A DNA stretch of 64,000 nt from Tritonibacter mobilis (lineage in GTDB: Bacteria > Pseudomonadota > Alphaproteobacteria > Rhodobacterales > Rhodobacteraceae). Under the pieces are notes generated by a model. It searched no databases. It saw only the letters and a program-made list of their open reading frames with translations, and was not told the origin of the DNA. The position numbers and the translations under genes are program-made. The stretch is taken from assembly GCF_001681715.1 (NCBI RefSeq), contig NZ_LNWY01000005.1, forward strand, positions 62,001 to 126,000, read 5' to 3'. This document shows positions 7,474 through 27,105 of the stretch, one piece after another (the first letter of the stretch is position 1; the number at the start of each line of letters is the position of its first letter).

Positions 7474-7537
7474 AATGTTCCTCCCATTTGACAAACACGC
7501 AAAAGCGCGATCATGAATCATGGTATTCCGACCCAAG

Positions 7538-7555
7538 CTGACACAAACCTGACAC
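7538..7555 (+). promoter_or_regulatory. candidate TctD response-regulator binding site (direct repeat)
   Basis: CTGACAC occurs at 7538-7544 and again at 7549-7555, exactly 11 bp apart. A one-helical-turn direct repeat is the usual target layout of OmpR/PhoB-type response regulators, and TctD is of that type. The site lies in the 102-bp tctC/tctD divergent region. Confidence 0.4.
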
Positions 7556-7575
7556 GGAGCAGATGTTTCGCCCCA

Positions 7576-10619: not shown

Positions 10620-13004
10620 CTATCCCGCCTGTCCGCCGGGAATACGGCGCGCGCCCACCGTCAGCTCACCCACCGATCGCGCAAGACTGTGACGGTCGAG
10701 GCCAAAGTGACGGTAAAGGTCGCCGATGGTGCCCGTTTGGCCAAAGTGTTCAACGCCATGCGACACCACCCGATGCCCTGCGACTGACCCCAGCCACGAG
10801 AGCGTCGCCGGATGGCCATCAATCGCGGTAATCAGAGTGCAATGGGCGGGCAGTTCGCCCAAGAGACGCTCCACATGCGATATGGCCTGCGGGTTCCCGC
10901 GCGCCCGTTCCCGCTGCGCCGCCGTCCAGCCCGCATTGAGACGGTCCGCCGAGGTCACCGCCAGCACCGCAACATCGCGCCGATGCTCGCCAATAAGTCC
11001 CGCCGCCGCAATCGCCTCATCCGCGACCGCGCCCTGATAGGCGATCACCACCGAACAATTCGGCCCCGGCTTGCGCAACCAATAGGCCCCATCAATCGCG
11101 CCCTGACGAAAGGCATCATCGACCCGCTGCCCCGGCTGCTCCAAGGGTTTGGTGGTCAGCCGCAAATAGACCGATCCGCCGGTTTCATCCCGCAGCCAGG
11201 TACGTTCGTCCGGGTCGCCTTCGCCATCGCGTTGCATATAGTCAAAGGCCCATTCCATGATGACCGCGAGTTCATCGGCAAAGGCCGGTTCAAAGCTCGC
11301 CAGCCCATCCTGCGCCATACCCGTGAGGGGCGTGCCCACGGATTGATGCGCGCCGCCTTCTGGCGCCAACGTCACCCCCGAAGGCGTGCCAACGATCATG
11401 AACCGCGCATCCTGATAGCAAGCGTAGTTCAGCGCATCCAAACCTCGGTGCACAAAGGGGTCATAGACCGTCCCGATCGGGATCACCCTCTTGCCCCAGA
11501 GGCTATGCGACAGGCCCGCCGCGCCCAGAAGCAGGAACAGGTTCATCTCGGCGATGCCCAGTTCGACATGCTGGCCTTGCGGATCAAAGTTCCATTTGGC
11601 CGTCGAGGGAATGCGATGCTCGATAAAGGCGTCCTTCTGTGCCTTGCGAGCAAAGAGCTTGCGCCGATTGACCCATGGCCCCAGCCCCGTGGTGCCGGTC
11701 ACATCCGGCGAGGTCGTCATGATCCGCGCCGCCAGATCGCTGTCGCCCCGCGCCAGATCGTCGAGGATCTTGCCAAAGGCCATCTGCGTTGAAATCTCGC
11801 GGCTTGTGTCCACCGCAACCGCAGGCACCGAAAGCCGCGCATCCGAGTAGCGCCGCGCCCCCTTGGCAAAAAACGGCACCTGATCAAGGTAGGCCTGAAA
11901 GCCCGCCGTGTCAGAAACGGTTGCCATCGGCTCCCACTCGTCGCCCTCGGCGACGCCCATATGAGTCTGCCACTCACTCATTTGCGCCTTGGTCATGAGA
12001 CCGCCGTGGTTGTCCTTGTGGCCCGCAATTGGCGTGCCCCAACCCTTGATCGTATACGCAAGGAAACAGGTCGGGCGGTCGTGGTCGATGGCGGCGAATG
12101 TGTCGGCCATGGTCTCCACGCAATTGCCGCCGAGGTTCTCCATCAGCGCCGCCAGTTCCGCGTCGCTGCGCTTGTCGATCAGTGCCGAGACCGCGCCCTG
12201 ATCGCCCAGATCCTCCATCAGCCGTTTGCGCCAATTGGCCCCGCCCATATAGGTCAGCGCGGAATATTCCACGTTCGGGCAGGCGTCGATCCAGTCGCGC
12301 AGGGCCGCGCCGCCGGGTTCCTCAAAGGCGGCCCGTTGCAGAGCGCCATATTTCACCCGCACCACGTCCCAGCCGAAGGCCTCGAATATTTTCTCGACCC
12401 GGCCAAACAGCCCCTCGCGCACGATGCCATCAAGGCTCTGACGGTTGTAATCGATGATCCACCAGGTGTTGCGCAGGTCGTTCTTCCAGCCTTCCTGCAA
12501 CACCTCGTAGATGTTGCCCTCGTCCAATTCCGCATCTCCGACCAGCGCCACCATCCGGCCCGGATTGACATCGCCGCCCCAGTCCTTGGCCGTGATGAAA
12601 TCCTGCACCATGGACGCCAGCGCGGTGATCCCCACACCAAGCCCCACAGACCCGGTGGAGAAATCCACATCGTCAATGTCCTTGGTGCGACTGGGGTAGC
12701 TCTGCACGCCGCCATAGCCCCGGAAGTTCTCCATCTTCTCGCGGGTCTGGTGGCCCATGAGGTATTGCATCGCGTGAAAGATTGGCGAGGCATGCGGTTT
12801 GACCGCCACCCGGTCCTCGGGGCGAAGCGCCGAGAAATAGAGCGCGGTCATGATCGACACCATCGACGCCGAGGACGCCTGATGGCCGCCGATCTTGATG
12901 CCATCTTCCTTGGCGCGCAGGTGGTTGGCGTTGTGGATCATCCAGTGGGACAGCCACAACAGCCGTTGCTCCACAGTTTTCAGGTGCTGGATCTGGTCGG
13001 ACAT
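10620..13004 (-). CDS. mdeB: homodimeric 2-oxoacid dehydrogenase E1-like / transketolase-like protein (MdeB)
   Basis: A 794-residue thiamine-diphosphate enzyme of the AceE-type E1 family: a GDAELDEG cofactor loop at about residues 156-163, then IIDYNRQSLDG, with a transketolase-like central domain and C-terminal domain. It lies 9 bases downstream of methionine gamma-lyase. In Pseudomonas putida the mdeA-mdeB operon encodes methionine gamma-lyase and an E1-type 2-oxobutyrate dehydrogenase, with an Lrp-type mdeR divergent, exactly the order here. The likely substrate is 2-oxobutyrate from methionine. No E2 or E3 gene is nearby. Plain annotation as transketolase would probably be wrong. Confidence 0.85.
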   Translation of the reverse strand: MSDQIQHLKTVEQRLLWLSHWMIHNANHLRAKEDGIKIGGHQASSASMVSIMTALYFSALRPEDRVAVKPHASPIFHAMQYLMGHQTREKMENFRGYGGVQSYPSRTKDIDDVDFSTGSVGLGVGITALASMVQDFITAKDWGGDVNPGRMVALVGDAELDEGNIYEVLQEGWKNDLRNTWWIIDYNRQSLDGIVREGLFGRVEKIFEAFGWDVVRVKYGALQRAAFEEPGGAALRDWIDACPNVEYSALTYMGGANWRKRLMEDLGDQGAVSALIDKRSDAELAALMENLGGNCVETMADTFAAIDHDRPTCFLAYTIKGWGTPIAGHKDNHGGLMTKAQMSEWQTHMGVAEGDEWEPMATVSDTAGFQAYLDQVPFFAKGARRYSDARLSVPAVAVDTSREISTQMAFGKILDDLARGDSDLAARIMTTSPDVTGTTGLGPWVNRRKLFARKAQKDAFIEHRIPSTAKWNFDPQGQHVELGIAEMNLFLLLGAAGLSHSLWGKRVIPIGTVYDPFVHRGLDALNYACYQDARFMIVGTPSGVTLAPEGGAHQSVGTPLTGMAQDGLASFEPAFADELAVIMEWAFDYMQRDGEGDPDERTWLRDETGGSVYLRLTTKPLEQPGQRVDDAFRQGAIDGAYWLRKPGPNCSVVIAYQGAVADEAIAAAGLIGEHRRDVAVLAVTSADRLNAGWTAAQRERARGNPQAISHVERLLGELPAHCTLITAIDGHPATLSWLGSVAGHRVVSHGVEHFGQTGTIGDLYRHFGLDRHSLARSVGELTVGARRIPGGQAG

Positions 13005-13013
13005 CTCGCCCCC

Positions 13014-14216
13014 TTACTCTGCCGCCTGCCGCATCTCGGGCGACAGCGCCTGATGCAGATCATCCAGAATGTCAGAGACTTCTTCCAGCCCCACCGACAA
13101 GCGCACAAGCCCGTCGCTGATGCCATGTTCGGCGCGTTCTTCGGGCGTGTAGGTGGAATGGGTCATAGAGGCCGGGTGCTGAATCAGCGTCTCCGCATCG
13201 CCAAGAGACACCGCACGATGGATCATTTGCAGGCGGTTCATCAGGCTGATGCCAGCCTCCATGCCGCCTTCGAGTTCGAAGGCGATCATGCCACCGGGCT
13301 GCGCCATCTGCACCTTGGCAATCGCGTGCTGTTCAAAGCTCTGCAGACCGGGGAAATAGACTTTGGCGACGCCGGGCTGGGCCTCAAGCCACTCCGCGAC
13401 GGTCTGCGCCGAAGCACAGTGACGGTCCATCCGCAGCGCCAGCGTTTTCAGCCCGCGCATGATCAGCATCGCGTTAAAGGGCGCCATCACCGCGCCGGTC
13501 ATATCCTTCATGCCGACAAGGCGGATTTCGGTCAAAAGCTCGGCGCTGCCCGCCACAAGCCCTGCGACCACATCGCCGTGACCACCAAGGTATTTGGTCG
13601 CCGAATGCAGCACCAGATCCGCGCCCAGCTCGATCGGGCGGGTCAGGTACGGTGTCGCATAGGTGTTGTCCACCACCACCCGCGCACCCACGGAATGGGC
13701 AATCTCAGAGGCCAGCTTGATGTCCACCAGCCGCATATTGGGGTTGGCGGGGGTCTCGAAATAAACCACGCGGGTCTTGTCACTGATGGCGGCACGCAGG
13801 GCGTCTGCGTCGGTCATGTCCACATGGGTGATGGTCACGCCCCATTTTGCAAGCCCGTGGCGCATATAGGCAAAGGTGCAGCCATAGAGCGTCTTGTCGA
13901 CGATGACCTCGTCACCGGGGCTCAGGAGCGTCCACAGGATCGCCGTCACCGCGCCCATGCCGCTTGCCAGTGCCAGACCGGCCTCGGCCCCTTCGAGCGT
14001 GGCGATGCGCTGTTCCAGCAGGGCGCAGGTCGGGTTCGAGATCCGGCTGTAGATATGGCCCTCGCGCTCGCCCGCGAACATTTCACCCCCGGCTTCGGCG
14101 TTCTCGAACACAAAGGTCGAGGTCAAATGCACCGGCGGCGTCAGCGCGCCCTCGTTCTGCATCGGGTCATAGGCGTGGTGGATGGCACGGGTGGCAAAGC
14201 CTTTGGCGTCGGACAT
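13014..14216 (-). CDS. mdeA: L-methionine gamma-lyase
   Basis: A 400-residue PLP enzyme of the Cys/Met metabolism family. It splits methionine to methanethiol, ammonia and 2-oxobutyrate. The PLP lysine is Lys208 in SATKYLGGHGD. The cysteine in TLYGCTFAYMRHG (Cys113) is the residue that marks methionine gamma-lyases against cystathionine lyases. The N-terminus GFATRAIHHAYDP also fits. It heads the mdeAB operon and is divergent from mdeR across 102 bp. In marine bacteria this enzyme gives methanethiol, linking it to organosulfur cycling. Confidence 0.92.
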   Translation of the reverse strand: MSDAKGFATRAIHHAYDPMQNEGALTPPVHLTSTFVFENAEAGGEMFAGEREGHIYSRISNPTCALLEQRIATLEGAEAGLALASGMGAVTAILWTLLSPGDEVIVDKTLYGCTFAYMRHGLAKWGVTITHVDMTDADALRAAISDKTRVVYFETPANPNMRLVDIKLASEIAHSVGARVVVDNTYATPYLTRPIELGADLVLHSATKYLGGHGDVVAGLVAGSAELLTEIRLVGMKDMTGAVMAPFNAMLIMRGLKTLALRMDRHCASAQTVAEWLEAQPGVAKVYFPGLQSFEQHAIAKVQMAQPGGMIAFELEGGMEAGISLMNRLQMIHRAVSLGDAETLIQHPASMTHSTYTPEERAEHGISDGLVRLSVGLEEVSDILDDLHQALSPEMRQAAE

Positions 14217-14834: not shown

Positions 14835-16718
14835 TCAGAGGCGCGGCATCCGTTCCGCGAGCGCTGTGAACCTGTCATAGTCTTTGTTTTCCGCTGTGCT
14901 CCACCCGGCCTCGGCAATGGCGCTGAGGCGGGGGAAAATCATGTGGTTGCGGCGCGCCATCGTGGTCAGATGCTCGCTCCAGACGCAGGCCTGAACCCCC
15001 TTCAAACGCCCAATTAGAGCCGCATCTCCGTTGTCGGCCTCAAACGCATAGGTCTTGTCGAGCGGGGTGAAACCGGCCCAGCTGGCCCCCGGCGCGTACC
15101 ACGCATCCGACAGCGCCATATCGAGGTAATAGGCCTGCCCCGGCGTGCTGACCACGTCGTAGCCCTCTTGCGCCAGCTCAGCGGTTTTCTCAATGGTGGT
15201 CCAGGCAAACAGCAGGCTGTGCGCGGGGTCCAGACCACCGCCATGGGCGACCTCTTCCCAGCCGCCGAGCTTGCGGCCAAGACCGATAAGAAAGTTCTGA
15301 ATGTGGCGTAGGAAATAGGCCTGCAATTCCGGCGTGTCCTTCAGGCCGGTTTCGCGCATCATCGCCTTTGCCTTGGGCGATTGCATCCATGCGCCCTTGG
15401 CCACCTCGTCACCGCCCACATGCACGACCTCGAACGGGAAGATTTCGCAGACCTCGGCCAGCACGGTCTCGGCAAAGGTATAAGACCCCTCAATGGCCGG
15501 GTTCAGCGCGTTATTGCCAAAGCCCTGCACCGACCAGTAGCTCTCGGGTTCTTCTTGGTCGACGAGGTCGGGCAAGGCCCCCAACACACAGGCGCAGTGC
15601 CCCGGAACATCGATCTCCGGCATGACCTCGACACCCAATCGGGCCGCATGTTTCACCACCTGTCGCGCCTCGTCTTGCGTATAATAGCCGCCCTGCCCGG
15701 TCATATCGGGGCCAAGCTGCGGCAACACCGGCAGGTCCATCCCTGTATGCGCGGCGATCTCGGTGAGCTGCGGATAGGCCTTGATCTCCAGCCGCCAGCC
15801 TTCGTCATCGGTCAGATGCCAGTGGAACCGGTTCATTTTGTGCCACGCCAGAATGTCCACATAGCGCAGCACCTGATCGAGCGGGTAGAACTGGCGCGAG
15901 ACATCCAGATGCGCGCCGCGCCAGCCGTGGCGGGGGGCATCCTCGATCTGACCACTGCGGGGAACACCATAACGCGCAGGCTCCGCATGGGCATTGGTCA
16001 GCACCTGCGCCAGCGTAATCAAACCGTAAAGCAGCCCCTGCCCCGCACCATGCTGTAGGGTGGCTTTACCCTCCGTCCAGGTGATCCGATAGGCGTCCTC
16101 GCCCAGCGTCTGATCCGCCTCAACAGTCAGTTGCGGGACGTCGTCCTTGGCGATCAGCACAAAGGGGGTCGGTGCCAGTGGATGCAGGCGGCGGGTCAGG
16201 TCTGCCACCTGTAATAGGCTCCGCATCACCGCAACGTCATCGGTCCGAAGTGCCAGATGGACGGGGGCCGTGGCGCACCACTCCGTAATGGCGGCTTGCT
16301 GAGGTTCGGGCAAAACACCGCATGTTAGACCCGCATTTTGCGATGCATTTGTATCTGCAATCGCCGCTGAGGCCTGCAAGTCCCCGGCAAAGGCCGGGAC
16401 AAGGGTTCCGTCCTCCAGCAAGACCCCGGCAGATTTTGGCCCCTCATTGGAATGTAGCGCTGGACGGGTGAGGTTGAACTCGGTGAACCGCCACGTCTCG
16501 CCCGGTTGCAGCACAAAGCCCGCGTCAGAGGCATACTCGTGGAAATTCGCCTGCCGCCGTATCAGCCGCGCCCCCGTGCAGCGCGAGGGGCGCAGGCAGC
16601 GCGTCAGGGTGGCATAGACAAGGCGCGGATTTGCAACCGGAGTGTCGCCGCAATTGGTCAGCGCGAACTCCATCGCGCCCTCTTCGGCGTGCCAAAGGCT
16701 GTCGAGGTGGAAGTGCAT
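14835..16718 (-). CDS. GH20 beta-N-acetylhexosaminidase (cytoplasmic)
   Basis: A 627-residue glycoside hydrolase family 20 enzyme. The catalytic Asp-Glu pair is Asp437-Glu438 in VVHVGGDEVAKGAW. Other family motifs are GWRGAHLDVSRQFYPLDQV, MNRFHWHLTDDEGWRLEI and PEIDVPGHCACV. The first 120 residues form a carbohydrate-binding-like N-terminal domain. There is no signal peptide, so it should act in the cytoplasm, cleaving chitobiose or short N-acetylglucosamine oligomers delivered by the adjacent ABC importer. It is the last gene of that operon. AGGA precedes the ATG. Confidence 0.92.
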   Translation of the reverse strand: MHFHLDSLWHAEEGAMEFALTNCGDTPVANPRLVYATLTRCLRPSRCTGARLIRRQANFHEYASDAGFVLQPGETWRFTEFNLTRPALHSNEGPKSAGVLLEDGTLVPAFAGDLQASAAIADTNASQNAGLTCGVLPEPQQAAITEWCATAPVHLALRTDDVAVMRSLLQVADLTRRLHPLAPTPFVLIAKDDVPQLTVEADQTLGEDAYRITWTEGKATLQHGAGQGLLYGLITLAQVLTNAHAEPARYGVPRSGQIEDAPRHGWRGAHLDVSRQFYPLDQVLRYVDILAWHKMNRFHWHLTDDEGWRLEIKAYPQLTEIAAHTGMDLPVLPQLGPDMTGQGGYYTQDEARQVVKHAARLGVEVMPEIDVPGHCACVLGALPDLVDQEEPESYWSVQGFGNNALNPAIEGSYTFAETVLAEVCEIFPFEVVHVGGDEVAKGAWMQSPKAKAMMRETGLKDTPELQAYFLRHIQNFLIGLGRKLGGWEEVAHGGGLDPAHSLLFAWTTIEKTAELAQEGYDVVSTPGQAYYLDMALSDAWYAPGASWAGFTPLDKTYAFEADNGDAALIGRLKGVQACVWSEHLTTMARRNHMIFPRLSAIAEAGWSTAENKDYDRFTALAERMPRL

Positions 16719-16755
16719 TTGAGATGATCCTGTTGGTTGTATGTGTCAGAGGATG

Positions 16756-17211
16756 TCAGACAAGGGCGCGCGCAAAGACGCCCTCATCAGAGTCCGGGAT
16801 CGCCACCGCGCCGCAGACCTGCTGATAAAATTCCACCGGCCCGGCCTGACCGATGATGCCATAGGCAAAGCCGTCGCCATGCAAGCGATGCAGTGCAGCG
16901 AGCAGAAGCGCCTTGCCAAGCCCCTTGCCACGGGCCTCAGGGTCGACGCCCGTGGGACCAAAAAAGCCGCGACAGGTGACGTCATAACAGGCAAACCCCA
17001 AGAGGCGCGTGCCTTCGGTCGCGATCAGAACCCGCGCCGGGCGCGCGGCCAGCGCCACCGTGCACTCATCCACCCATTTGGGACTGAAATGCCGGCCCAC
17101 GAACCCCAGCAGGATATGCGATTCAAACGGCAGTGCAGGGCGGATCGTGAGACCGTCCGCCAGATTGGGCACCGGCGGCAGACGATAGAGCGGCACCAGC
17201 ATATCAGGCAT
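16756..17211 (-). CDS. GNAT family N-acetyltransferase
   Basis: A 151-residue protein with the GNAT fold: a hydrophobic beta-strand pair (ARVLIATEGTRLLGFACYDVT) and an acetyl-CoA loop in TGVDPEARGKGLGKALL (RGKGLGKA, about residues 95-102). It overlaps the upstream ATPase gene by 8 bp and precedes the GH20 gene, so it belongs to the chitobiose operon. Acetylation of a glucosamine-type product is a tempting but unproved role. Confidence 0.85.
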   Translation of the reverse strand: MPDMLVPLYRLPPVPNLADGLTIRPALPFESHILLGFVGRHFSPKWVDECTVALAARPARVLIATEGTRLLGFACYDVTCRGFFGPTGVDPEARGKGLGKALLLAALHRLHGDGFAYGIIGQAGPVEFYQQVCGAVAIPDSDEGVFARALV

Positions 17212-18133
17212 GGGCGGCCTCCGCGTGTTCCGCGATGAGGTGGCCGGGGCTCACTTCCTGCAAGGCACGGACAGGATGCGCGCTGAGGTCCCGCACCTGG
17301 CGTGCCTCGGCGGCAAAGCCCGCATCGCTGCCGGTGAGGCGCAGCTCTGGGTCGGGAACCGCCGCGCGCAGCAGTTTCGTATACCCATGTTGCGGCGCGC
17401 CCACGACCTCTGCGGTGGGGCCTTTCTCGACCACCTGACCGCGAAACATCACCGCCGTGTCTTCGGCCAGATACTCCGCCGTGGCGATATCGTGGGTAAT
17501 GTACAGGAGCGACAGCCCGTGTTCGTCCTTCAGGCGCTGCATCAGCCCGAGGATGGATTTGCGGATCGACACATCCAGCATCGAGGTCGGCTCATCCGCC
17601 ACGATCAGACGCGCCTTGACCGCCAATGCGCGGGCGAAATTCACCCGCTGGCGCTGCCCGCCCGACAGTTCATGCGGGAACTTTGCGGGTGTCGAAGTCG
17701 GGTCCAGCTCCACATCCTCAAGGATCATGCGCAGGGCCGTTTCGGGATCGGCCTCTGGCTGGTGCAGCGACAGCGCGCGCAGCAGGTGATGGCGGATCGT
17801 ATGCGCGGGGTTAAGCGCCGAAAACGGATCCTGAAACACCATCTGCACCGCTTGCCGATAGCGCATCTGGTCGGCGCGTGTGGTCAGCTCTGCGATGTCT
17901 TGGCCCTCAAACAGGATGCGGCCCGAGGTCGGCGTGTGATGCCCCACAATCATCCGGCCCACCGTGCTTTTGCCAGAGCCGCTCTCTCCCACCAGCGCCA
18001 GCGCACGGCCCGGCATCAGATCAAGCGAGACATTGCGCAGCGCATGCACCTTGGTTGCGCGCCCGAAGGCGGGGCGCAAGGTGAAGGTCTTGCTGAGGTT
18101 ATCAAGGCTGAGGATCGGGGTTTCAGACAGCAT
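17204..18133 (-). CDS. oligosaccharide/peptide-type ABC transporter ATPase (DppF-like)
   Basis: A 309-residue ABC ATPase. Walker A is GESGSGKSTVGRMI, the signature is ELSGGQRQRVNFARAL and Walker B is LIVADEPTSMLDVS. The start MLSETPILSLDNLSKTFTL at 18133 has AAAGGAG upstream; the longer start at 18160 would lie inside the previous gene. With the DppD-like ATPase it powers the importer. The binding protein suggests the cargo is chitobiose rather than peptide. Confidence 0.92.
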   Translation of the reverse strand: MLSETPILSLDNLSKTFTLRPAFGRATKVHALRNVSLDLMPGRALALVGESGSGKSTVGRMIVGHHTPTSGRILFEGQDIAELTTRADQMRYRQAVQMVFQDPFSALNPAHTIRHHLLRALSLHQPEADPETALRMILEDVELDPTSTPAKFPHELSGGQRQRVNFARALAVKARLIVADEPTSMLDVSIRKSILGLMQRLKDEHGLSLLYITHDIATAEYLAEDTAVMFRGQVVEKGPTAEVVGAPQHGYTKLLRAAVPDPELRLTGSDAGFAAEARQVRDLSAHPVRALQEVSPGHLIAEHAEAAHA

Positions 18134-18935
18134 GACGCGCTCCTTTCGGGCGTTTGGCAAGGATCGGCATCGCCTCCCACAGGCTGCGGGTGTAGTCGTG
18201 GCTTGGGCTGGTCACGATCTGCGCGGCAGTGCCGATTTCGACAATCTCGCCCGCGCGCATGATGCCGATGCGGTCCGAGATCTGCGCCATCAGGGCGATG
18301 TCGTGGGTGATGAACAGAACAGAAAACCCCAATTCGTCCTTCAGCCGCAGCACCTCTTGCAGGATTTCGCGCTGCACCACCACATCGAGCGCGGTGGTTG
18401 GCTCATCCATGATGATGAGTTTGGGTTGCAAGGTGAGCGCAAGGGCAAGCGCCACCCGCTGCCGCATCCCCCCCGACAGCTGATGCGGGTGCGAATGCAT
18501 ACGATCCGCCGGGATGCCGACCATCTCCAGCATATGGGCGGTGCGATCCTGTGCCTCCGCCTTGGTGATCGGACCGTGCGCGCGCAGCATGTCGTAGAAC
18601 TGGCGAAAGATCGTCATCACCGGGCTGAGCGAGTTCATCGCACTTTGGAACACCATGGAGACTTCGGACCAGCGCCACGCACGCAAATCCTTGTCGGAGA
18701 ACGACAAGACATCGCGCCCTTCAAACAGGATGCGTCCGCGACGCACCAATGCCGGAGGTTTGTGCAAACGCATCAGGGCATAGGCCACCGTGCTCTTGCC
18801 GCAGCCGGACTCGCCCGCCAGACCGAGGATCTCATTGGGTTGGATCTCAAACGAAATGTCCCGAACAGCGGTGAAGGGTTCGCCTGCGGTCAGGTAATCG
18901 ACCCGCAAGCCTTCGACAGAGAGAAGCGCGCTCAT
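18123..18935 (-). CDS. oligosaccharide/peptide-type ABC transporter ATPase (DppD-like)
   Basis: A 270-residue ABC ATPase with Walker A GESGCGKSTVAYAL, signature QLSGGMRQRVALALAL and Walker B LIIMDEPTTALDVV. The correct start is MSALLSVEGLRVDYLTAG at 18935, where ATGA overlaps the stop of the permease gene. The frame stays open to 19430, but that part is a shadow of the permease. It pairs with the DppF-like ATPase. Confidence 0.92.
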   Translation of the reverse strand: MSALLSVEGLRVDYLTAGEPFTAVRDISFEIQPNEILGLAGESGCGKSTVAYALMRLHKPPALVRRGRILFEGRDVLSFSDKDLRAWRWSEVSMVFQSAMNSLSPVMTIFRQFYDMLRAHGPITKAEAQDRTAHMLEMVGIPADRMHSHPHQLSGGMRQRVALALALTLQPKLIIMDEPTTALDVVVQREILQEVLRLKDELGFSVLFITHDIALMAQISDRIGIMRAGEIVEIGTAAQIVTSPSHDYTRSLWEAMPILAKRPKGARHAV

Positions 18936-19840
18936 TGGCTGGCCTCCTGCATGCGTTGGCGCAACAGGCGCTTTTCGATCCGGAGCGCCTTGGCGACATT
19001 GCCAAGGGTGCGCATCCGGGGGTTTGCGATCTCGTCCACGCCGAAGTTCATCAGCGACAGGCCCACGCCGATCAGGACGATGGCGGCACAGGGGGCCAGA
19101 ACCTCCCACCAGGCACCCACCATGATCGCCGATGCGGTCTGCGCATTGTAAAGCATGGTGCCCCACGACAGCGCCAAGGGGCTGCCAAGGCCGAGGAATT
19201 CCAGCGTCGCCTCGGTGATGATGGTGAAGATGACAGAGCCGATAAAGTTGAAGCCGATGATCGACAGAAGGTTCGGCAGCATCTCCACAAGGATCATCCG
19301 CCATGTGGGCTCGCCAATCATCGCAGAGGCCTGAATAAAATCGCGGGTTTTCAGCGACATCGCCTGCGCACGGGTGACGCGCGCACCCCAGGCCCAAGAG
19401 GTCAGGCCAATAATCAGCGCGATCGCCCAAGGCCCGACCTGACCGAGGAAAGCGGCCAGAACCAGCAGAAGCGGCAGTTGCGGCAGCACCAGCACCACAT
19501 TGGTGAGGAAGTTCAGCACATCATCCACTATACCGCCGAAATAGGCGGCGGTGATGCCGATGAAGGTGCCGATAGCGGTCACGATCAGCCCGGCAACAAT
19601 CCCCACCATCAAGGAGGTGCGGGTGCCCCAGATCAACTGGCTGAACACATCGCGCCCCATGCGGGTGGTGCCCAGCCAATGCTCCACCGAGGGGGCCTGA
19701 TGCGGACGACCCACGCGGGCGATGGGGTCGAAAGGGGCAAGCAAAGGCGCAGCCAATGCAATCGCCACATAGGCCAGCACGATAGCAAGCCCGATGGCCG
19801 CCTTGCGGTTGCGCAGGAAGGTACGGAGGAGATCTGACAT
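18932..19840 (-). CDS. ABC transporter permease (DppC-like)
   Basis: A 302-residue inner-membrane protein with about six membrane segments. The N-terminus LLRTFLRNRKAAIGLAIVLA is of DppC/OppC type, with GTTRMGRDVFSQLIWGTRTS and an EAA-like loop around WGARVTRAQAMSLKTRDFI. It overlaps the DppD-like gene by 4 bp and the DppB-like gene by 1 bp, indicating tight coupling within the importer operon. Confidence 0.92.
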   Translation of the reverse strand: MSDLLRTFLRNRKAAIGLAIVLAYVAIALAAPLLAPFDPIARVGRPHQAPSVEHWLGTTRMGRDVFSQLIWGTRTSLMVGIVAGLIVTAIGTFIGITAAYFGGIVDDVLNFLTNVVLVLPQLPLLLVLAAFLGQVGPWAIALIIGLTSWAWGARVTRAQAMSLKTRDFIQASAMIGEPTWRMILVEMLPNLLSIIGFNFIGSVIFTIITEATLEFLGLGSPLALSWGTMLYNAQTASAIMVGAWWEVLAPCAAIVLIGVGLSLMNFGVDEIANPRMRTLGNVAKALRIEKRLLRQRMQEASQ

Positions 19841-20817
19841 CAGGCCCTCTTCAGTCTGGGGTCAAGGAAGACATAGGCCAGATCCACCGCGAGGTTCGCG
19901 AGCAGCATGGCGAGTGTCATGATGAGGAGCTGGCCCTGGATCAGCGGGAAGTCCCGCCCGACGATGCCGAGGTACAAAAGGTTGCCCACACCGGGATAGT
20001 TGAACACCACCTCGGTAATAAGAGAGCCACCAAACAGCGCCCCGAAACTGAGCGCCAGCGCGGTGACGGAGGGCAGCAGCGCGTTGCGGGCGGCATAGGC
20101 ATAGCGCACGCGGGCATCGCTCAGCCCCTTGGCTTCGGCCATGGCGAGGTAGTCCTCTCCCAGCTGCCCAATCATGTTGTTGCGCATGGTAATGAGGTAG
20201 CCGCCGATCAGCACCACGCTCAGCGTCACCACCGGCAAAAAGCCGTGATAGGCCACGGAAGAGATGAATTCCCAGCTCCACGCCGGGTCCAGCTTGGGAT
20301 CAAAGGCATAGGAGGTCGGGAAAAAACGGTTGCGCACCGCAAGGAAATACAGCCCGCAAAGCGCCACCACGACAGCGGGCACCGATTGCAGCGCCAATGC
20401 GGTGGGCGAGGCGATCACATCCGTAAGCTGCCCGCGCCGCCATGCCGCAAGCACACCAAGAAGCGTGCCGATGGAAAAGGAAATCAACAGGGCCGAGCCG
20501 GTCAGGAACAAGGTCCACGGCAGCGCCTGTGTCAGCACATCGGCAACCGGCATCGGGTAGAACTTGATCGACAGCCCAAAGTCCCAGGTAAAGATCGAGC
20601 CGAGATAGGCGAAATACTGTTCATGCAGCGGCGCGTCGATGAACCCAAAGGTGGCCATCAGCGCCTCGCGCGCTTCGGGTGCGATCATGCCACCGGAGTT
20701 CGCCAGCATGATATCCGCCGGGTTGCCGGGCAACAGGCGCGGGATCATGAAGTTGAAGGTCGCGGCCACCAAAAAGGCAACGGCATAAAAGCCGAGCCGC
20801 TTCAAAAGAAAACGCAT
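19840..20817 (-). CDS. ABC transporter permease (DppB-like)
   Basis: A 325-residue inner-membrane protein: LLKRLGFYAVAFLVAATFNFMIPRLLPGNP is the usual DppB/OppB beginning, with about six membrane segments and an EAA loop around MAEAKGLSDARVRYAYAARNALLPSV. An ATG at 20817 is chosen; a GTG immediately before it at 20820 is possible. No good ribosome-binding site is visible. A hairpin lies between it and the binding-protein gene. Confidence 0.9.
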   Translation of the reverse strand: MRFLLKRLGFYAVAFLVAATFNFMIPRLLPGNPADIMLANSGGMIAPEAREALMATFGFIDAPLHEQYFAYLGSIFTWDFGLSIKFYPMPVADVLTQALPWTLFLTGSALLISFSIGTLLGVLAAWRRGQLTDVIASPTALALQSVPAVVVALCGLYFLAVRNRFFPTSYAFDPKLDPAWSWEFISSVAYHGFLPVVTLSVVLIGGYLITMRNNMIGQLGEDYLAMAEAKGLSDARVRYAYAARNALLPSVTALALSFGALFGGSLITEVVFNYPGVGNLLYLGIVGRDFPLIQGQLLIMTLAMLLANLAVDLAYVFLDPRLKRA

Positions 20818-20860
20818 CACGTCAAACCATCTGTCGGGAGGGGGAGTGTGGCGCCAAAAG

Positions 20861-20889
20861 CGGGACCACTCATCAGACGAGCGGTCCCG
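20861..20889 (-). other. intercistronic hairpin between the binding-protein and permease genes
   Basis: CGGGACC (20861-20867) pairs with GGTCCCG (20883-20889), and inside them CTC pairs with GAG, giving a stem of about ten pairs with one mismatch. It sits 16 bases after the binding-protein stop with no U-run. It is probably an mRNA 3-prime stabiliser or partial terminator, as is common after abundant binding-protein genes. Confidence 0.55.
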
Positions 20890-20904
20890 AAGGTCGGGGA
20901 GGAA

Positions 20905-22560
20905 TTATTCGACCGGGCGCAGGTTCAGGAGGTGGATCAGACGGGCCGGATTGGTCTTGTGAACCACCGGGTTGGCCACCGGGTTGTCGGCATTAAAGAA
21001 GCCTTCAAAACGCTTGGTGTTGTACTGATACCAACGCGGATTGTTGAACACATAGGCCAGCGGCATGTCTTCACCGACGATCTTTTGCACATCGGCGATG
21101 ATCGCCATTTGCTTGTCGGTATCGCTGGTCTGGGTGAAGGCATCCAGCAGGCCGCTCAGCTCTTTATTGTAGTAGCGCGAGGCGGCAAAGCGCGATTTGG
21201 CCTGATTGATCTCATGCAACGAGTCCAGATACTGGTTGAAGGGGGTCGCACCGACACGAACGGAATTGATCGCCATGTCGTAGTCGCCCTTGATCAGCTT
21301 TTCGGTCCAGATCGCAGACTCGGGGGTTGAGACATTGGCCTTGATGCCGGCAGCATTCAGACCTTCAACCGCAATCTGGCTGCTGTTGACCCAGTCAGTC
21401 CAGCCATTGGGCACGATGACCTCAAGATCGATCTGTTCGCCATTCGGGGTCTCGACAAAACCGTCACCATCGACATCCTTGAACCCGGCTTCGGCCAGCT
21501 GCACCTTGGCCCCGTCGATATCGTACTGGGTAAACGCACCGAACTTGTCGTCCACCTCGGGGTTGTTCCACGCGTGATAGGCGCGGCCCAGTCCGGACGG
21601 ATACTGGTTGATCGTCGGGTAGCCATAACCTGCGATTTCAACCATCGCCTCACGATCAAACGCCATCGACACCGCACGGCGGAAGGCAACATCGTTGATC
21701 GCTTCTTTGTCGCCGGCCTCTTTGGCCTCAAAGTTCATGTAGAACGCCACGAGAGAACCTGCGGGCAGCCAGTAGCTGTGATGCTCCGGGTCCTTGGCAA
21801 CATAGGTGTTCTCGATATCAGGCAGGAAAGACCCCATCCAGTCCAGCTCGCCATTGGCGGCGGCTGCCAGCGCCTGATCGTTGTTGGCGATCTGCGGGAA
21901 CCGCATGCAGTCGACCTTGAGGCTCTCAGCGTCCCAATAGTTGTCATTGCGGCACTGGATGTATTCCTGCGGCGTGAAGCGACGGATTTCCGTAAGCGGA
22001 CCAGAGCCAACCGGATCAGGGTTGGTAAAGGTAACGGGGTCTGCAACTTCGCTCCAGATGTGTTCCGGCACGATCGGCACGCGCACGATCTGATACATCG
22101 CCTGACTGGAGGGGGTGGAGAGGTTGAATTGAACCGTCATCTCGTCGATTTTTTCGACGCCAGAGAGCATCTGCGCCATGCCCACGCTATCGAGCGCCGG
22201 ATCGCTCAGCGCCAGATCGAAAGATTTGACCACGTCATCGGCGGTGAATGCTTCGCCATCGGACCACTGGACGCCCTCACGCAGCGTCACGGTGATGGTG
22301 CTGAGATCCTCGGAATATTCAAATGCGGTCGCCAGACGGTAAATCGGCTTGCCGCCATCCAGCGCGTTAAAAATAATCAGCGGCTCGTACATGAAGTGCA
22401 TGACCGAGGGCGCGGCGGTGGTCTGGTTGAACGGGTTGAAGTTCTCCACCCATGCGGTGACCTGTTCCGGCAGCGCACTCAGCACGGTTTCCTCTGCCTG
22501 AGCAGCGGTGGTCCAGAGCGCAACCGAGGCCAGCAGCCCGGCGGTAGCAGTGAATTTCAT
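20905..22560 (-). CDS. chitobiose/chitooligosaccharide-binding protein (solute-binding family 5)
   Basis: A 551-residue periplasmic binding protein of the DppA/OppA class, with signal peptide MKFTATAGLLASVALWTTAA and cleavage near AQA-EE. It closely resembles, as I remember it, the Vibrio chitin-oligosaccharide-binding protein (CBP): EYIQCRNDNYWDAESLKVDC, RFPQIANNDQ, AGFKDVDGDGFVETP and PNGWTDW. In Vibrio that protein feeds the (GlcNAc)2 ABC importer and also holds the ChiS kinase inactive. Here it heads a Dpp-type operon ending in a hexosaminidase and is divergent from a ChiS-like kinase. Cellobiose binding is the main alternative, but the hexosaminidase argues for chitobiose. Confidence 0.88.
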   Translation of the reverse strand: MKFTATAGLLASVALWTTAAQAEETVLSALPEQVTAWVENFNPFNQTTAAPSVMHFMYEPLIIFNALDGGKPIYRLATAFEYSEDLSTITVTLREGVQWSDGEAFTADDVVKSFDLALSDPALDSVGMAQMLSGVEKIDEMTVQFNLSTPSSQAMYQIVRVPIVPEHIWSEVADPVTFTNPDPVGSGPLTEIRRFTPQEYIQCRNDNYWDAESLKVDCMRFPQIANNDQALAAAANGELDWMGSFLPDIENTYVAKDPEHHSYWLPAGSLVAFYMNFEAKEAGDKEAINDVAFRRAVSMAFDREAMVEIAGYGYPTINQYPSGLGRAYHAWNNPEVDDKFGAFTQYDIDGAKVQLAEAGFKDVDGDGFVETPNGEQIDLEVIVPNGWTDWVNSSQIAVEGLNAAGIKANVSTPESAIWTEKLIKGDYDMAINSVRVGATPFNQYLDSLHEINQAKSRFAASRYYNKELSGLLDAFTQTSDTDKQMAIIADVQKIVGEDMPLAYVFNNPRWYQYNTKRFEGFFNADNPVANPVVHKTNPARLIHLLNLRPVE

Positions 22561-22914
22561 TTTCTATCTCCCTGTGATGACGGGTTTGCCCCGCCTCGTG
22601 TTCATCCGCCTGATCCCGCCTTGCGACAGGTGGCCCATGTTACAATCCATGGTAGCATTCAGTCTCCTCACCAAACGCCGGGGATGTCCCACAATGAAGT
22701 CCGCGCTGCGCCTCCAATGGTACCCGAAAAATCGGAAATTTCGTCAAAACGCCGCGCGCGCCGTTTTGACGTATCGTAATAATTTAAATATTCCAATTCG
22801 TTAGAGATATTATTCTCGGGTCGGCATTTATTGTGAATACCGCCTGTGCTCTTGCGTCAATTATGGCTAGGCCGCAGGATCACGCATAACACAACCAGAA
22901 AAACCGGAGCCACC
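22561..22914. promoter_or_regulatory. divergent promoter region of the chitobiose operon and ChiS-like kinase
   Basis: A 354-base gap with no credible gene. The half nearer the binding-protein gene is GC-rich and featureless. At 22742-22771 lies a long palindrome, followed by an AT-rich block at about 22772-22800 (TAATAATTTAAATATT) that could hold the kinase promoter. A GTG with a weak ribosome-binding site at 22846 is a possible upstream start of the kinase. Confidence 0.6.
22742..22771. promoter_or_regulatory. 30-bp palindrome, candidate operator of the chitobiose regulon
   Basis: CGTCAAAACG at 22742-22751 and its exact inverse CGTTTTGACG at 22762-22771 are separated by a 10-base spacer of C and G only. 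Each arm carries a TTGACG-like hexamer pointing outward, so the element could overlap the -35 regions of both divergent promoters. A hairpin or a protein operator are both possible. Confidence 0.5.
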
Positions 22915-25900
22915 GTGCCGCTACAGGGAATCCGCGCGCGCCTGCTGTTTACCTTTCTTCTTGCGTCGGTTCTGCCACTGGCGCTGGGCGGTATGGTGTT
23001 CTATCGGCTGGTCAATCAGACCATCGCTACCGAGACCTTTCAGAAGGTGGCTTTTGTGCGCGATGCCAAGGCCAGCGAAATCACGCAATATATGACCTAT
23101 GCCCGCAGGCAGGCCGAAAACCTCGCCCAGTCTGCCAATGTGCGCTACTCCGTGGGGGAGTTTTATGGCTTTAGCCATGCGCTGCGGCAGATGGACGGTA
23201 CCCCCGAGGAAGCGGGCGCCAAGCTGCGCAATATTTTCGATATTGATGGCCCTGCGGCGCCCCCGTCCGGTATTGGCAGTGAGGATCGGCTGCTGCGCGA
23301 GGCGCTGGAGTATTCCAATACCCATCGCCGCTTTCACGCGGGGTTTCTCGACTTTTTGAACGAGGCGGAATTCGACAATCTCTATCTCGCGGATCGTCAC
23401 GGTCAGGTGGTCTATTCGGTGCACAAAGATCGCTATCTTGGGCGCATGCTGGACACGGGCACTGTTGGTTTGGGGCAAGCCTATAGCCGCGCGGTCAGCC
23501 AGCCGGGTTATGATCCGGTGTTTCAGGACTACGCATTGGATGCGGTCACCGGGGATCTCGTGGCCTATCTGGCGGTGCCGGTGCGCCTGCATGGCAGCAA
23601 CAAAGGCGCGATGATCCTGCGCATGCCGCCCAACAGCCTGCAACGGCTGATGATCGAAAGCGAAACCGCCCTGACGGTGTTGTCGTCGCAAGGGACGGTC
23701 ATTGCCTCCAGTGGCGGGCCCACGCCCGGTGATATGCCGGATGCGATGACCGGCGCGGATGGGGTCGCCCTGCTGGAGGCAGGTCTCTCGGGTGATCCGT
23801 CCCTGTCTGCCTGGCGGGTGCTGGACCCGCCCTTTCCCGAATGGACGGTCGTCGCCGAGGCGGACAGCGACACGGCTTTTGCCACTAGCCGCCAGCTGCG
23901 CAACGCGCTGTTCCTGATCGGGGCAGTGGCTGTTGCGGGCCTCGGGGTATTGTCCTTTCTGTTTTCCAACGCATTGACCCGCCCGGTCCGGCGCATCTCT
24001 GAGGCCGCCAGCGCGGTCGCCACCGGCAGTCTGAACGAAGCACTCCCCGAATACGACCACCCGGTGGAATACGCGCGCCTTTCGCGCGCGGTGAACCAGA
24101 TGCGACGCGCCTTGCGCGATCAACTCGACATGATCCGCGATAAGAACGCCGAGCTTCAGGAAAACCTGCGCCAGATCGGCGAAAAGAACGCCAAGCTCGA
24201 AGAAGCGGACCGGATGAAGGACCGCTTCCTTGCCAATACCTCGCACGAGCTGCGCACGCCGTTGAACGGGATCATAGGCATTCTGGAAACGCTGGAAGGC
24301 GGCGCCATGGGCGACATGCTGCCCGCACAGGCGAGCCAGCTGCGTCTGATTACCTTCAGCGCGCGGCGCCTGTCGCGGCTGGTGGATGATCTTCTGGATA
24401 TCTACCGCATTCGTGAAGGCCGCATGCGGCTGGATTTGCAGCCCGTGGATGTCGCCCATGCGCTGCGCAACGTGCTGCAGTTGTTGCAGCCGACTTTTCA
24501 GGTGGATCCGGCCAAATTCCACCTCAACCTGCCCGAGGATCTGCCCGCCGTCACTGCGGACCCGGTGCGGTTTGAGCAAATCCTGTTCAACCTGCTGTCA
24601 AATGCGGTGAAATATGGCGGCGGCAGCGAGGTGCATATCACCGCAGAGCGGCGTGCCTCGGGGCAGATGGCACTTGCGATCCGCGATCATGGCCCCGGGA
24701 TTGCTGCCGATAGTATGGAGCGGATCTTTCACCCGCTGGAACAGCTGATGCCCGAAGGGTCGGGTCAGGCCACAGGCACCGGTCTGGGGCTCACGATTGC
24801 GCGCCATCTGGCTGATCTGATGTCGGGCAGCATCGAGGTCTCAAGCACCCCCGGCGAAGGATCGGAATTCCGGGTACTCTTGCCGCAATCCGACCTTCCG
24901 GCGATTGCGCCGCTTGAGGAATGGCTGCCCACGCAACTTGCCCCGGCCCCTATGATGCAGTCCGAGACAGGCAACACCAGCCCGGCCGCACCGGATGGGT
25001 CGCCGATGATCCTCGCCGTGGATGATGAACCGATCAACCTGCAAGTGCTGCAAAATGTGCTGCAACCGCAAGGTTACCGTGTCACCACAGCGCGCAACGG
25101 GACAGAAGCGCTGCGCAATGTTGCGCAGGACCGGCCTGATCTGATCGTGCTGGATGTGATGATGGCGGGTCTCAGCGGGCTTGATGTGGCGCGGGACCTG
25201 CGCCGCCGCCATGGATTGCATGAACTGCCGATCATTCTGCTCACCGCGCGCGGGCGCACCAGCGATATGCTTGCGGGGTTTGAGGCAGGCGCCAATGATT
25301 ATGTGGTGAAACCCTTTGTCAAAGACGAGCTGTTGAGCCGCATTCGCACCCTTCTTGAGGCCAGCCGCGCCCGCAGCCGGGCCGAGGAAAACCGCGAACT
25401 GAAAGAGGAAATCGAGCGCCGTATCCAGATCGAGGACGCCCTGCGCCTGTCGCAGCGCCGGATGACACAATTGCTAGACACGCTGGAGGACGGGCTGATC
25501 TGCATCAATGCCCGCGGTGTGGTCACTTACGTCAATGACGCCGCGCAACAGGTTCTCGACCAGCGCGTGACGGTGAACCGCAGTCGTCTGAAGGAGGTTC
25601 TGCCCCCGGAGGTTCTGGCCCCGCTCGAACAAACAGAAGTCGAGGACGAGCCGATCCACATGGAAATCACCCTGCGTGGGACCTCGCATCAGGTCAGCCT
25701 GTTTGCCATGCTCCCCGAAGCTGGCGGCGGGCGTGCCGTGCTGTTCACACAGGCGCAAACCCCGCGCGCGCAATTCGTGCACTCTCTGCGTGACGTGGTC
25801 GACACTTCGCTGCCTTCCTTGATCACAGAAGATACCACCGAAGAAGCCAGCGCCGCGACCGGTGACAGCTACCGCGAAACCATCGTAGCGCTGATGTCGG

Positions 25901-26196
25901 ACTCGCTGGAGATCTGGAACGCCGCGACCGGCAAGGGCAAGATCGACTTTGCCGAGACCAGTGGCATCTGGCGCGTGAACCTCGACAAGACATCACTGCA
26001 GACCCGCACGCTCGACAAATACCTGCTGATCGAGACCCTGCCCGACAACCCGCGCTGGCGGGACGTGCTGAAAACCGTGAGCTTTGTGCTCTCGCTCAAG
26101 GAACGCGACACCGTGGACGAGGCCCTCGCCCAGCGCTTTGATGCGATGGAAACCCGACTGGAGGAGTTCCGCGCCTTGATCGCCCAGCGCGGCTGA
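22915..26196 (+). CDS. ChiS-like hybrid sensor histidine kinase
   Basis: A membrane hybrid kinase of 1093 residues from a GTG at 22915 that has GGAG six bases upstream; an earlier GTG at 22846 would give 1116. Order: membrane helix at residues 13-35, a periplasmic sensor domain of about 300 residues, a second helix at about 336-357, HAMP, a kinase core with His444 in NTSHELRTPLNGIIG, an ATPase domain (NLLSNAVKYGGG; GTGLGLTIARHL), a receiver domain with Asp747 in LIVLDVMMAGLSG, a coiled coil and PAS-like stretch at about 820-940, and a C-terminal domain at about 985-1093 (SGIWRVNLD; NPRWRDVLKTVSFVL). There is no HPt domain. Size, layout and position beside a CBP-type binding protein match Vibrio ChiS, in which the extra C-terminal domain binds DNA. 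The ChiS identity is an inference. Confidence 0.85.
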   Translation: MPLQGIRARLLFTFLLASVLPLALGGMVFYRLVNQTIATETFQKVAFVRDAKASEITQYMTYARRQAENLAQSANVRYSVGEFYGFSHALRQMDGTPEEAGAKLRNIFDIDGPAAPPSGIGSEDRLLREALEYSNTHRRFHAGFLDFLNEAEFDNLYLADRHGQVVYSVHKDRYLGRMLDTGTVGLGQAYSRAVSQPGYDPVFQDYALDAVTGDLVAYLAVPVRLHGSNKGAMILRMPPNSLQRLMIESETALTVLSSQGTVIASSGGPTPGDMPDAMTGADGVALLEAGLSGDPSLSAWRVLDPPFPEWTVVAEADSDTAFATSRQLRNALFLIGAVAVAGLGVLSFLFSNALTRPVRRISEAASAVATGSLNEALPEYDHPVEYARLSRAVNQMRRALRDQLDMIRDKNAELQENLRQIGEKNAKLEEADRMKDRFLANTSHELRTPLNGIIGILETLEGGAMGDMLPAQASQLRLITFSARRLSRLVDDLLDIYRIREGRMRLDLQPVDVAHALRNVLQLLQPTFQVDPAKFHLNLPEDLPAVTADPVRFEQILFNLLSNAVKYGGGSEVHITAERRASGQMALAIRDHGPGIAADSMERIFHPLEQLMPEGSGQATGTGLGLTIARHLADLMSGSIEVSSTPGEGSEFRVLLPQSDLPAIAPLEEWLPTQLAPAPMMQSETGNTSPAAPDGSPMILAVDDEPINLQVLQNVLQPQGYRVTTARNGTEALRNVAQDRPDLIVLDVMMAGLSGLDVARDLRRRHGLHELPIILLTARGRTSDMLAGFEAGANDYVVKPFVKDELLSRIRTLLEASRARSRAEENRELKEEIERRIQIEDALRLSQRRMTQLLDTLEDGLICINARGVVTYVNDAAQQVLDQRVTVNRSRLKEVLPPEVLAPLEQTEVEDEPIHMEITLRGTSHQVSLFAMLPEAGGGRAVLFTQAQTPRAQFVHSLRDVVDTSLPSLITEDTTEEASAATGDSYRETIVALMSDSLEIWNAATGKGKIDFAETSGIWRVNLDKTSLQTRTLDKYLLIETLPDNPRWRDVLKTVSFVLSLKERDTVDEALAQRFDAMETRLEEFRALIAQRG

Positions 26197-26199
26197 GGC

Positions 26200-27105
26200 T
26201 TAGTCGCCCAAGGGCTGCGGCCCCGTGCGACCGTGATAGGCGGTGAGAGAGGCCCGGATGCGGCGCAGGTTCTCGGTTGTGGCCTCGCTGCGCGCCTGCG
26301 CCACAGACATCGCCAACGCATCCACGATCACCAAATGGGCATAGCGCGATGCGGTGGGTTTCAGAATGTCCGGATCTTCGGGCAGATCGGCCTCGATTGC
26401 AATGGTCGCTTCCTGCGCCAATCGGCTGCCGGGGCGCGTGATGGCTACGACCGTTGCGCCGTAACCCCCGGCGATCCCCGCCGCGCTGACGACTTCATCC
26501 GCCGCGCCGCTGGTGGAGACCAAAAGCAGCACATCATTCGTCCCCAAGGTCGCCGCGCGCATCTGCAACAGATAGCTGTCGGAAACCGCAACTGCCGGAA
26601 TTCCAAGCCGAAACATCCGGTTGGCCGCCTCCTGCGCCACCATTGTTGATCCACCGCCGACCCCGGCGACCACGATCTGCCCGGCCTCCGTCAGCGCCTG
26701 CACCGCCGCATCCATTCGTTCGGGCACGATCTGCTGACGCATCACATTCACGGTCGCGTAGAGCGCGCCCAATACCTGATCGACCGCGCCTGCGCCCCCC
26801 TCGGATACGTCCCGGTGACTGGGCGCGAGGTATTGCAGGCTGACCGCGAGGTTCTGTGCCAGGCGCAATTTGAACTCTCGAAACCCGTCACATCCCATGC
26901 TCCGGCAAAAGCGCACAACCGTGGGCGTGCTGACCCCAACCGCCCCCGCAAGTTCGGCTATGGTCATGCCGGAAATCTCCTCAAGATGTGCCGACACGAA
27001 GTCTGCAACCTTCTGCTCACGCGCGGCAAAGGTGCCGTTCAACTGGCGCAGATTGGAGATCAGATCCACTGCGCCCTGTGCGGGGCCGTTGTCAGGTGTC
27101 GGCAT
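26200..27105 (-). CDS. RpiR/MurR family transcriptional regulator
   Basis: A 301-residue regulator with an N-terminal HTH_6 domain (FAAREQKVADFVSAHLEEIS; GVSTPTVVRFCRSMGCDGF at about residues 55-75) and a C-terminal SIS sugar-phosphate domain at about 130-260 (IVVAGVGGGSTMVAQEAANR; LLVSTSGAADEVVSAA). RpiR proteins sense phosphorylated sugars or sugar acids. It is divergent from the TRAP operon, so it probably controls it, with two matching dyads between the genes. Its stop lies 4 bases from the convergent ChiS-like gene. Confidence 0.9.
   Translation of the reverse strand: MPTPDNGPAQGAVDLISNLRQLNGTFAAREQKVADFVSAHLEEISGMTIAELAGAVGVSTPTVVRFCRSMGCDGFREFKLRLAQNLAVSLQYLAPSHRDVSEGGAGAVDQVLGALYATVNVMRQQIVPERMDAAVQALTEAGQIVVAGVGGGSTMVAQEAANRMFRLGIPAVAVSDSYLLQMRAATLGTNDVLLLVSTSGAADEVVSAAGIAGGYGATVVAITRPGSRLAQEATIAIEADLPEDPDILKPTASRYAHLVIVDALAMSVAQARSEATTENLRRIRASLTAYHGRTGPQPLGD

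Follow-up and report, generated by a model that had tools for sequence, protein, structure and literature searches.

The regulator ChiS of Vibrio cholerae stands out as a histidine kinase that binds DNA itself, and the purpose of its kinase part is still debated. In that organism, the chitooligosaccharide-binding protein (CBP) exerts repression when chitin is lacking, ChiS activates the promoter Pchb, and the ChiS variants W388C and I429T evade repression by EIIAGlc (PMC10208484). Pchb holds two ChiS sites, and DNA binding requires R1068, R1074, K1078, R1090, and R1092, of which R1068 is poorly conserved (PMC8092284). Here we describe a further member of the ChiS family, found in Tritonibacter mobilis within a window of 64,000 bp (the whole stretch of DNA that was analysed; contig NZ_LNWY01000005.1, positions 62,001 to 126,000), where the plus-strand kinase gene diverges from a minus-strand operon composed of genes for a CBP, two permeases, two ATPases, a GNAT acetyltransferase, and a GH20 hexosaminidase. 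We assign a probability of roughly 0.82 to the reading that this is an alphaproteobacterial ChiS-CBP system, in which the CBP would feed the importer and set the sensor, and the kinase's own C-terminal domain would bind an operator and activate the divergent operon.

Regulator and DNA-Binding Domain

The regulator is composed, in order, of a transmembrane (TM) segment, a dCache-like periplasmic sensor, a second TM segment, HAMP, HisKA (H444), HATPase_c, a receiver (D747), PAS, and the ChiS-family DNA-binding domain; the succession from the periplasmic sensor between two membrane spans to the PAS domain is that of ChiS. The frame is open from 22846, and homologues place the start near the GTG at 22915, which gives 1093 amino acids, the length assumed in an earlier, sequence-only reading of this DNA that described a divergent hybrid kinase with a receiver, without an HPt domain, and without an adjoining response regulator. 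Pfam searches agreed, identifying dCache_1, HAMP, HisKA, HATPase_c, Response_reg, and PAS, no Hpt, and no match across the last ~110 residues. Among the scanned neighbouring proteins, no response regulator adjoined the kinase, the nearest being of the OmpR type (7513-8241), with its own kinase and some 15 kb away. The PAS domain and the GNAT gene are features beyond that earlier reading. The AlphaFold2 (AF2) model of the sensor, of low confidence (mean pLDDT 69), matched Cache domains such as DctB at TM-scores of 0.3-0.4 and carries the description no further than "Cache-like". Among named relatives, Epibacterium sp. Ofav1-8 is the closest (99% over the kinase), with Tritonibacter species next.

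The C-terminal stretch had been proposed to resemble the DNA-binding domain of ChiS, and it does so in sequence and in fold. The last 111 residues, compared with PDB sequences by phmmer (E up to 1), gave 7kpo as the sole match (E 6.4e-23), an entry labelled in Foldseek as the DNA-binding domain of V. cholerae ChiS and also matched by the whole kinase (E 2.7e-21). With an AF2 model of the domain (the best of five, with a mean pLDDT of 81; the other four reached 64-72), 7kpo was the top Foldseek match (E 3.9e-4, TM-score 0.55/0.62, root-mean-square deviation 5.9) and the only one with E below 0.001. When the DNA-binding residues were counted by hand on the alignment, R1074, K1078, R1090, and R1092 were identical and R1068 was replaced by lysine (four of five retained), and the DNA-contact stretch was nearly invariant. 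By every feature that a sequence can test, with W388 treated as non-defining, the protein is a ChiS-family regulator. Since Pfam has no model for this domain, Pfam-based surveys would overlook such regulators.

Candidate Operator in the Divergent Promoter

The region between the CBP and kinase genes contains a conserved block, CCGAAAAATCGGAAATTTCGTCAAAA, built on a 9-bp direct repeat and proposed here as the operator. In an alignment of 15 Roseobacter intergenic regions (the window, L007-L019, and L050; L-numbers are labels of the individual loci compared), the block was present in all regions, with 20 of 28 columns invariant compared with 27 of 338 elsewhere; the next best window of 28 columns held 8. 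A motif-free test of repeat period, based on 6-mers recurring at a distance of 6 to 25 and on mononucleotide shuffles, ranked period 9 first in the Vibrio-type promoters (z 9.9, six promoters), in Roseobacter (z 5.7, four loci), in Rhizobiaceae (z 12.7, two loci), and in L075 (z 6.7). Period 9 was not the top period upstream of GH20 or of the CBP in L075 (rank 3 each), nor in five ChiS-less control promoters (rank 9). In each of the six Vibrio-type genomes, the CBP promoter carries a pair of CGTYAANNNCGTYAA-type blocks (reverse strand) with a spacing of 30 bp.

A matrix was built on these 12 Vibrio-type promoter blocks. Its best match in the promoter region of the window falls on the proposed operator (p 0.035), and p was at or below 0.035 in 12 of 14 ChiS-linked regions and below 0.05 in none of five ChiS-less controls, with multiple tests uncorrected and near relatives not independent. 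In whole-locus scans of 15 loci, the promoter of the regulator or CBP held the best match in eight, the second best in four, and the fourth in one (L007). Binding of the regulator to 22724-22749 and activation of the operon, which we infer from these comparisons, are well supported.

In L075, the top matrix match of the 20-kb locus (3314-3328) is situated just upstream of GH20 and away from ChiS and the CBP, beyond the regions tallied above, as if that GH20 gene were a second target of the regulator. No further copy of the operator was found in the Tritonibacter genome at up to three mismatches, and with this single copy a genome-wide operator regulon was rejected. An inverted repeat, CGTCAAAACG...CGTTTTGACG (22742-22771), overlaps the proposed operator; visual inspection showed it in the window and L050 and not in most other loci.

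Operon, Gene Order, and Distribution

Table 1. Features of the regulator locus, with positions in the 64,000-bp window
Feature	Position	Strand	Basis
Cytoplasmic GH20 beta-N-acetylhexosaminidase	14835..16718	-	Pfam Glyco_hydro_20; PDB 6ezr
GNAT acetyltransferase, perhaps glucosaminide N-acetyltransferase	16756..17211	-	Pfam Acetyltransf_1; kept in relatives' loci
ATP-binding cassette (ABC) ATPase, DppF-type	17204..18133	-	309 amino acids; Pfam, NCBIfam; synteny
ABC ATPase, DppD-type	18123..18935	-	270 amino acids from MSALLSVEG within a longer open frame; Pfam, NCBIfam; synteny
Dpp/Opp-type permease C	18932..19840	-	Pfam, NCBIfam; synteny
Dpp/Opp-type permease B	19840..20820	-	Pfam, NCBIfam; synteny
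Chitooligosaccharide-binding protein (CBP, SBP_bac_5)	20905..22560	-	551 amino acids, signal-peptide-like N-terminus; PDB matches
Divergent promoter region between CBP and kinase	22561..22914		Sequence; coding starts
Proposed operator, 9-bp direct repeat	22724..22749	+	Conserved block; Vibrio-type matrix; genome search
ChiS-type hybrid sensor kinase	22915..26196	+	Pfam; start by homologues; conserved H and D; TM-like segments
ChiS-family DNA-binding domain	25861..26193	+	Core residues 986-1061 of 1093; 7kpo match

The genes divergent from the kinase (Table 1) encode the proteins that the sequence-only reading had named, namely a CBP-type binding protein, a Dpp-type importer, and a cytoplasmic GH20. 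The best PDB matches of the binding protein are structures of Vibrio chitooligosaccharide-binding proteins (E 8e-167 to 1e-164), and the preference for peptides that had been put forward as contrary evidence was not seen; a peptide or nickel importer was likewise rejected, the best NCBIfam score of the binding protein being 124 bits against a cut-off of 650. The GH20 catalytic domain (PF00728, E 2.2e-102) has the N-acetylglucosaminidase Nag2 (6ezr) as its best PDB match (E 8.6e-106), and no signal peptide was seen by eye on the protein. The GNAT protein weakly matched 5kf1 (E 0.0014), which we take to be the glucosaminide acetyltransferase GlmA; an enzyme of this kind would fit partly deacetylated sugars. 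A fungal GH3 N-acetylglucosaminidase carries a fused GNAT region (PMC4680927).

The ChiS-family domain was found in 6 of the 18 genus genomes, in 1 of 149 in the family sample (the window's own), in 9 of 385 in the class sample, and in 15 of 398 in the phylum sample. These 15 comprise, among others, the window's genome and ten genomes of a single genus, judged to be Vibrio on the basis of their CBP. A named-locus search returned 14 loci, that is, one from Lysobacter (L020), with three stretches matching the domain within 11 kb, and 13 from Roseobacters (Tritonibacter/Epibacterium, Shimia, Parasedimentitalea, Zongyanglinia, Thalassovita, and records named only Rhodobacteraceae). In all 13 Roseobacter loci the kinase, CBP, permeases, ATPases, and GH20 are present in the order of the window and divergent, and the GNAT gene is present in 11 (not in L011 or L014) and in four Rhizobiaceae loci. 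The same gene order occurs on four Rhizobium/Pararhizobium plasmids, with GH20 matched in L047, L065, and L066 and not in L046. Among the six loci that supplied Vibrio-type promoters, five encode the kinase, the CBP, and, at a minimum, permeases on a single strand, and the sixth, L055, encodes the kinase, the CBP, and one permease.

At E <= 1e-110, the CBP occurred in exactly those genomes that bear the domain, both in the class sample (9 of 385; Fisher 2e-18) and in the genus (6 of 18; Fisher 5e-5), with kinship uncorrected; one of these searches scored the three best candidates per genome. A recent transfer from Vibrio was rejected, as the alphaproteobacterial CBPs, ~45% identical to those of the Vibrio type, all fall on one side of a branch with 100/100 support. 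As to a plasmid-borne window, none of the plasmid records reached 60% identity.

Kinase-Less Relatives

The class sample contributed eight loci in addition to that of the window, consisting of L075, which encodes a full kinase, a GH20, an OprD-family porin, the CBP importer, and a GNAT, and seven loci (L076-L082) encoding a form newly found here through the window protein and not met in the literature consulted, which we call mini-ChiS. These proteins of ~500 amino acids match the window kinase in the sensor and the DNA-binding domain only, and all seven are gapped in the alignment at the HisKA histidine and the receiver aspartate; Pfam searches of four (L076, L077, L078, and L082) returned no HisKA, HATPase, or receiver. 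Two membrane-span-like segments were found in six of them and one in L079. All seven adjoin a CBP importer, although L081 contains only the first part of the CBP before its contig ends, and a GH3 gene lies beside mini-ChiS in the three loci checked (L076, L077, and L078). TonB-dependent receptors are located nearby in L077 (6790-9402) and L078 (7092-10004).

The mini-ChiS proteins are the strongest hint that the state of the sensor may reach DNA without a kinase, and a direct sensor-to-DNA route is favoured because they keep the sensor, the membrane span, and the DNA-binding domain beside the CBP. We lean towards the view that ChiS is one end of a family in which the core of histidine kinase and receiver can be removed, the CBP-coupled sensor being fused directly to the DNA-binding domain in several alphaproteobacterial families. 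On this view, mini-ChiS would signal from the CBP to the promoter through one membrane protein, phosphorylation would only modulate, and Vibrio and the Alphaproteobacteria would both have retained an operator, a 9-bp direct repeat close to CGTYAANNNCGTYAA. The full-length architecture is common to the Vibrio-type and alphaproteobacterial proteins. In the CBP tree, the full form L075 groups with five mini forms at a support of only 89/93 and L082 sits on a long branch; the trees give no firm support for or against an origin of mini-ChiS from full ChiS by loss. Full-length and kinase-less forms beside the same CBP and importer constitute a natural deletion series bearing on the need for the kinase.

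Proposed Mechanism and Alternatives

Drawing on the observed homology of the domains, the shared gene order, the co-occurrence, the conserved block in the promoter, and the kinase-less relatives, we propose that the periplasmic CBP binds a disaccharide of N-acetylglucosamine (GlcNAc), with chitobiose or a close analogue as the likeliest candidate, and supplies it to the Dpp-type importer. The CBP, which is adjacent and co-occurs, would also govern the periplasmic sensor of the adjoining ChiS-type kinase. This membrane-anchored regulator, without a separate response regulator, would then bind 22724-22749 through its own C-terminal domain and activate the divergent operon from there. The imported sugar would be acetylated by the GNAT enzyme where needed and cleaved to GlcNAc by GH20, with the kinase and receiver taken to modulate and not to relay. 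The sequence-only reading had suggested that a direct kinase-to-DNA route outside the Vibrionaceae would be of interest. The route itself gains from the conserved repeat in 22561-22914 and from the kinase-less relatives beside the CBP; its novelty holds in part only, since ChiS-family domains across diverse Proteobacteria had already been published (PMC8092284), whose Data Set S1 may list alphaproteobacterial members. In the openly licensed literature, no description of a ChiS system was found for Rhodobacter, Rhizobium, or the Alphaproteobacteria, nor for Roseobacters in connection with chitobiose use.

Several observations weigh against the proposed system. Regarding the operator, period 9 was not the top period in the mini-ChiS regions (rank 9 of 20 upstream of the regulator and rank 3 upstream of the CBP), and z values near 5 are not rare, because the control promoters reach z 4.8 at period 11. 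The matrix blocks were chosen by eye after the alphaproteobacterial footprint was known, and the matrix left two exceptions among the ChiS-linked regions (L077 upstream of the CBP, p 0.085; L082, p 0.22), and one of the ChiS-less controls reached p 0.055. In 2 of 15 loci, the 64-kb window with its proposed operator and L082, none of the top five matrix matches fell in the promoter of the regulator or CBP, and the sole sigma-70-like pattern found would set the operator downstream of the transcription start. Regarding gene content, the Lysobacter locus gave no CBP match within 11 kb, and the plasmid records included 148 with a CBP match (E <= 1e-60) and 5 with the domain; the class and genus sets match exactly and the plasmids do not, and therefore the domain was never seen without the CBP in the alphaproteobacterial sample, whereas the CBP occurs without the domain, and importers with a CBP but no ChiS are frequent on Rhizobium plasmids. 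At the position of W388, 15 Roseobacter rows have glutamate and six Vibrio-type rows tryptophan; because of this substitution, EIIAGlc control of the Roseobacter regulator is probably absent. The CBP pocket and the chitinase search, which also count here, are considered below together with the ligand.

A phosphorelay of the classical hybrid-kinase type, in which phosphate travels via an HPt protein to a remote response regulator and leaves the C-terminal domain as a relic or a DNA tether, would explain why the catalytic histidine and the receiver aspartate are kept in all 27 aligned full-length relatives, a conservation that places phosphorylation chemistry under selection. We nevertheless consider it improbable, given the lack of an Hpt domain and of a response regulator among the scanned neighbours, the near-invariance of the DNA-contact stretch, and the relatives that lack HisKA, HATPase, and receiver yet retain a sensor and a DNA-binding domain next to this importer. 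Proteins of the RpiR family that carry SIS domains are frequent regulators of sugar genes, and an RpiR/HexR-like gene (26200-27105, minus strand) adjoins the 3' side of the kinase gene. That its product is the true regulator of the operon is highly unlikely, since genes for a TRAP transporter and others come next on the opposite strand and since just 4 of 13 Roseobacter loci, each from the window's genus, have the gene at this position.

A different ligand would leave the direct DNA-binding mechanism as it stands. The regulator may answer to another GlcNAc disaccharide, either partly deacetylated chitobiose or one derived from peptidoglycan or glycans, a variant that we regard as possible but rather unlikely. 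Eleven contact positions of VhCBP, taken from PMC8449061, were compared; seven are kept in the window CBP (N204, S221, F222, W363, D365, R436, and F437) and four are altered (E10, N409, F411, and W513 to Q, S, R, and H), so the protein belongs to the CBP family by descent and its ligand is not certain. N409, F411, and W513 are changed in all 15 aligned Roseobacter CBPs, which, together with the GNAT gene and the lack of any GH18 match in the 4.7-Mb genome (other chitinase families were not searched), speaks for another sugar. On the other hand, the retained W363, D365, R436, and F437 are reported as main contacts or N-acetyl readers of VhCBP, in which the greatest affinity losses are tied to D365, W363, W513, and F437 (PMC8449061). 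Furthermore, GH20 is nearest to Nag2, and the related cluster L075 holds an OprD-family porin. A GlcNAc disaccharide is thus likely as ligand, and chitobiose plausible, not certain. Genes for NagA and a BadF-type kinase sit on another contig, which, with no GH18 match, fits an organism that scavenges sugar released by others. The ChiS-CBP system proposed here suggests how Roseobacters, often living alongside chitin degraders, might detect GlcNAc disaccharides that other organisms produce, and this ChiS branch in a distant class offers a short proposed operator suited to in vitro tests.

Flanking Genes

Beyond the kinase, the segment 26200-34103 is a separate catabolic cluster, in which the RpiR/HexR-like gene (minus strand) is followed on the plus strand by genes for the TRAP components DctQ and DctM, an M81/MlrC protein, a D-serine dehydratase/alanine racemase-like protein, a PfkB kinase, and RidA. 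On the other side, adjoining the operon, genes for a transketolase-like protein of 794 amino acids and a methionine gamma-lyase (above the NCBIfam cut-off) occupy 10620-14216; the latter gene is also present in the further genus loci L049, L050, L052, and L053 and not in L051. An OmpR-type response regulator and a 2CSK_N sensor kinase form a pair at 7513-9623, and upstream of it the starts of open reading frames resemble, by eye, a TctCBA-type uptake system.

Comparison with Related Systems

The ChiS-less plasmid clusters of Rhizobium, Ensifer, Phyllobacterium, and Thalassospira (L083-L087) share the CBP, four importer genes, and GNAT with the window; they differ in having a GH3 gene, in the three that are annotated, and in showing no ChiS-family domain within 20 kb and no significant operator match. 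ToxR, CadC, and hybrid-type transmembrane regulators resemble the window protein as membrane-bound proteins meant to bind DNA themselves; they were found, as described in PMC10269533, through Pfam DNA-binding models, whereas the ChiS-family domain has no Pfam match. The mini-ChiS proteins share the Cache-like sensor, membrane spans, ChiS-family domain, and adjoining CBP importer, and differ in their length, the missing HisKA, HATPase, and receiver, and the GH3 neighbours mentioned above. In contrast to the Vibrio ChiS-CBP-chb system, in which the kinase gene lies upstream in the same direction, the window kinase is divergent from its operon and belongs to the class Alphaproteobacteria, with a regulator ~32% and a CBP ~45% identical. 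The operon includes GNAT, four CBP contacts are changed, W388 is replaced by glutamate, and the genome lacks a GH18 match. What the two systems have in common is the domain order of the regulator (as also in the Vibrio-type protein L055), the DNA-binding domain and its contact residues, the adjoining CBP and Dpp-type importer, and the 9-bp-repeat blocks that occur in the CBP promoters of the six Vibrio-type genomes.

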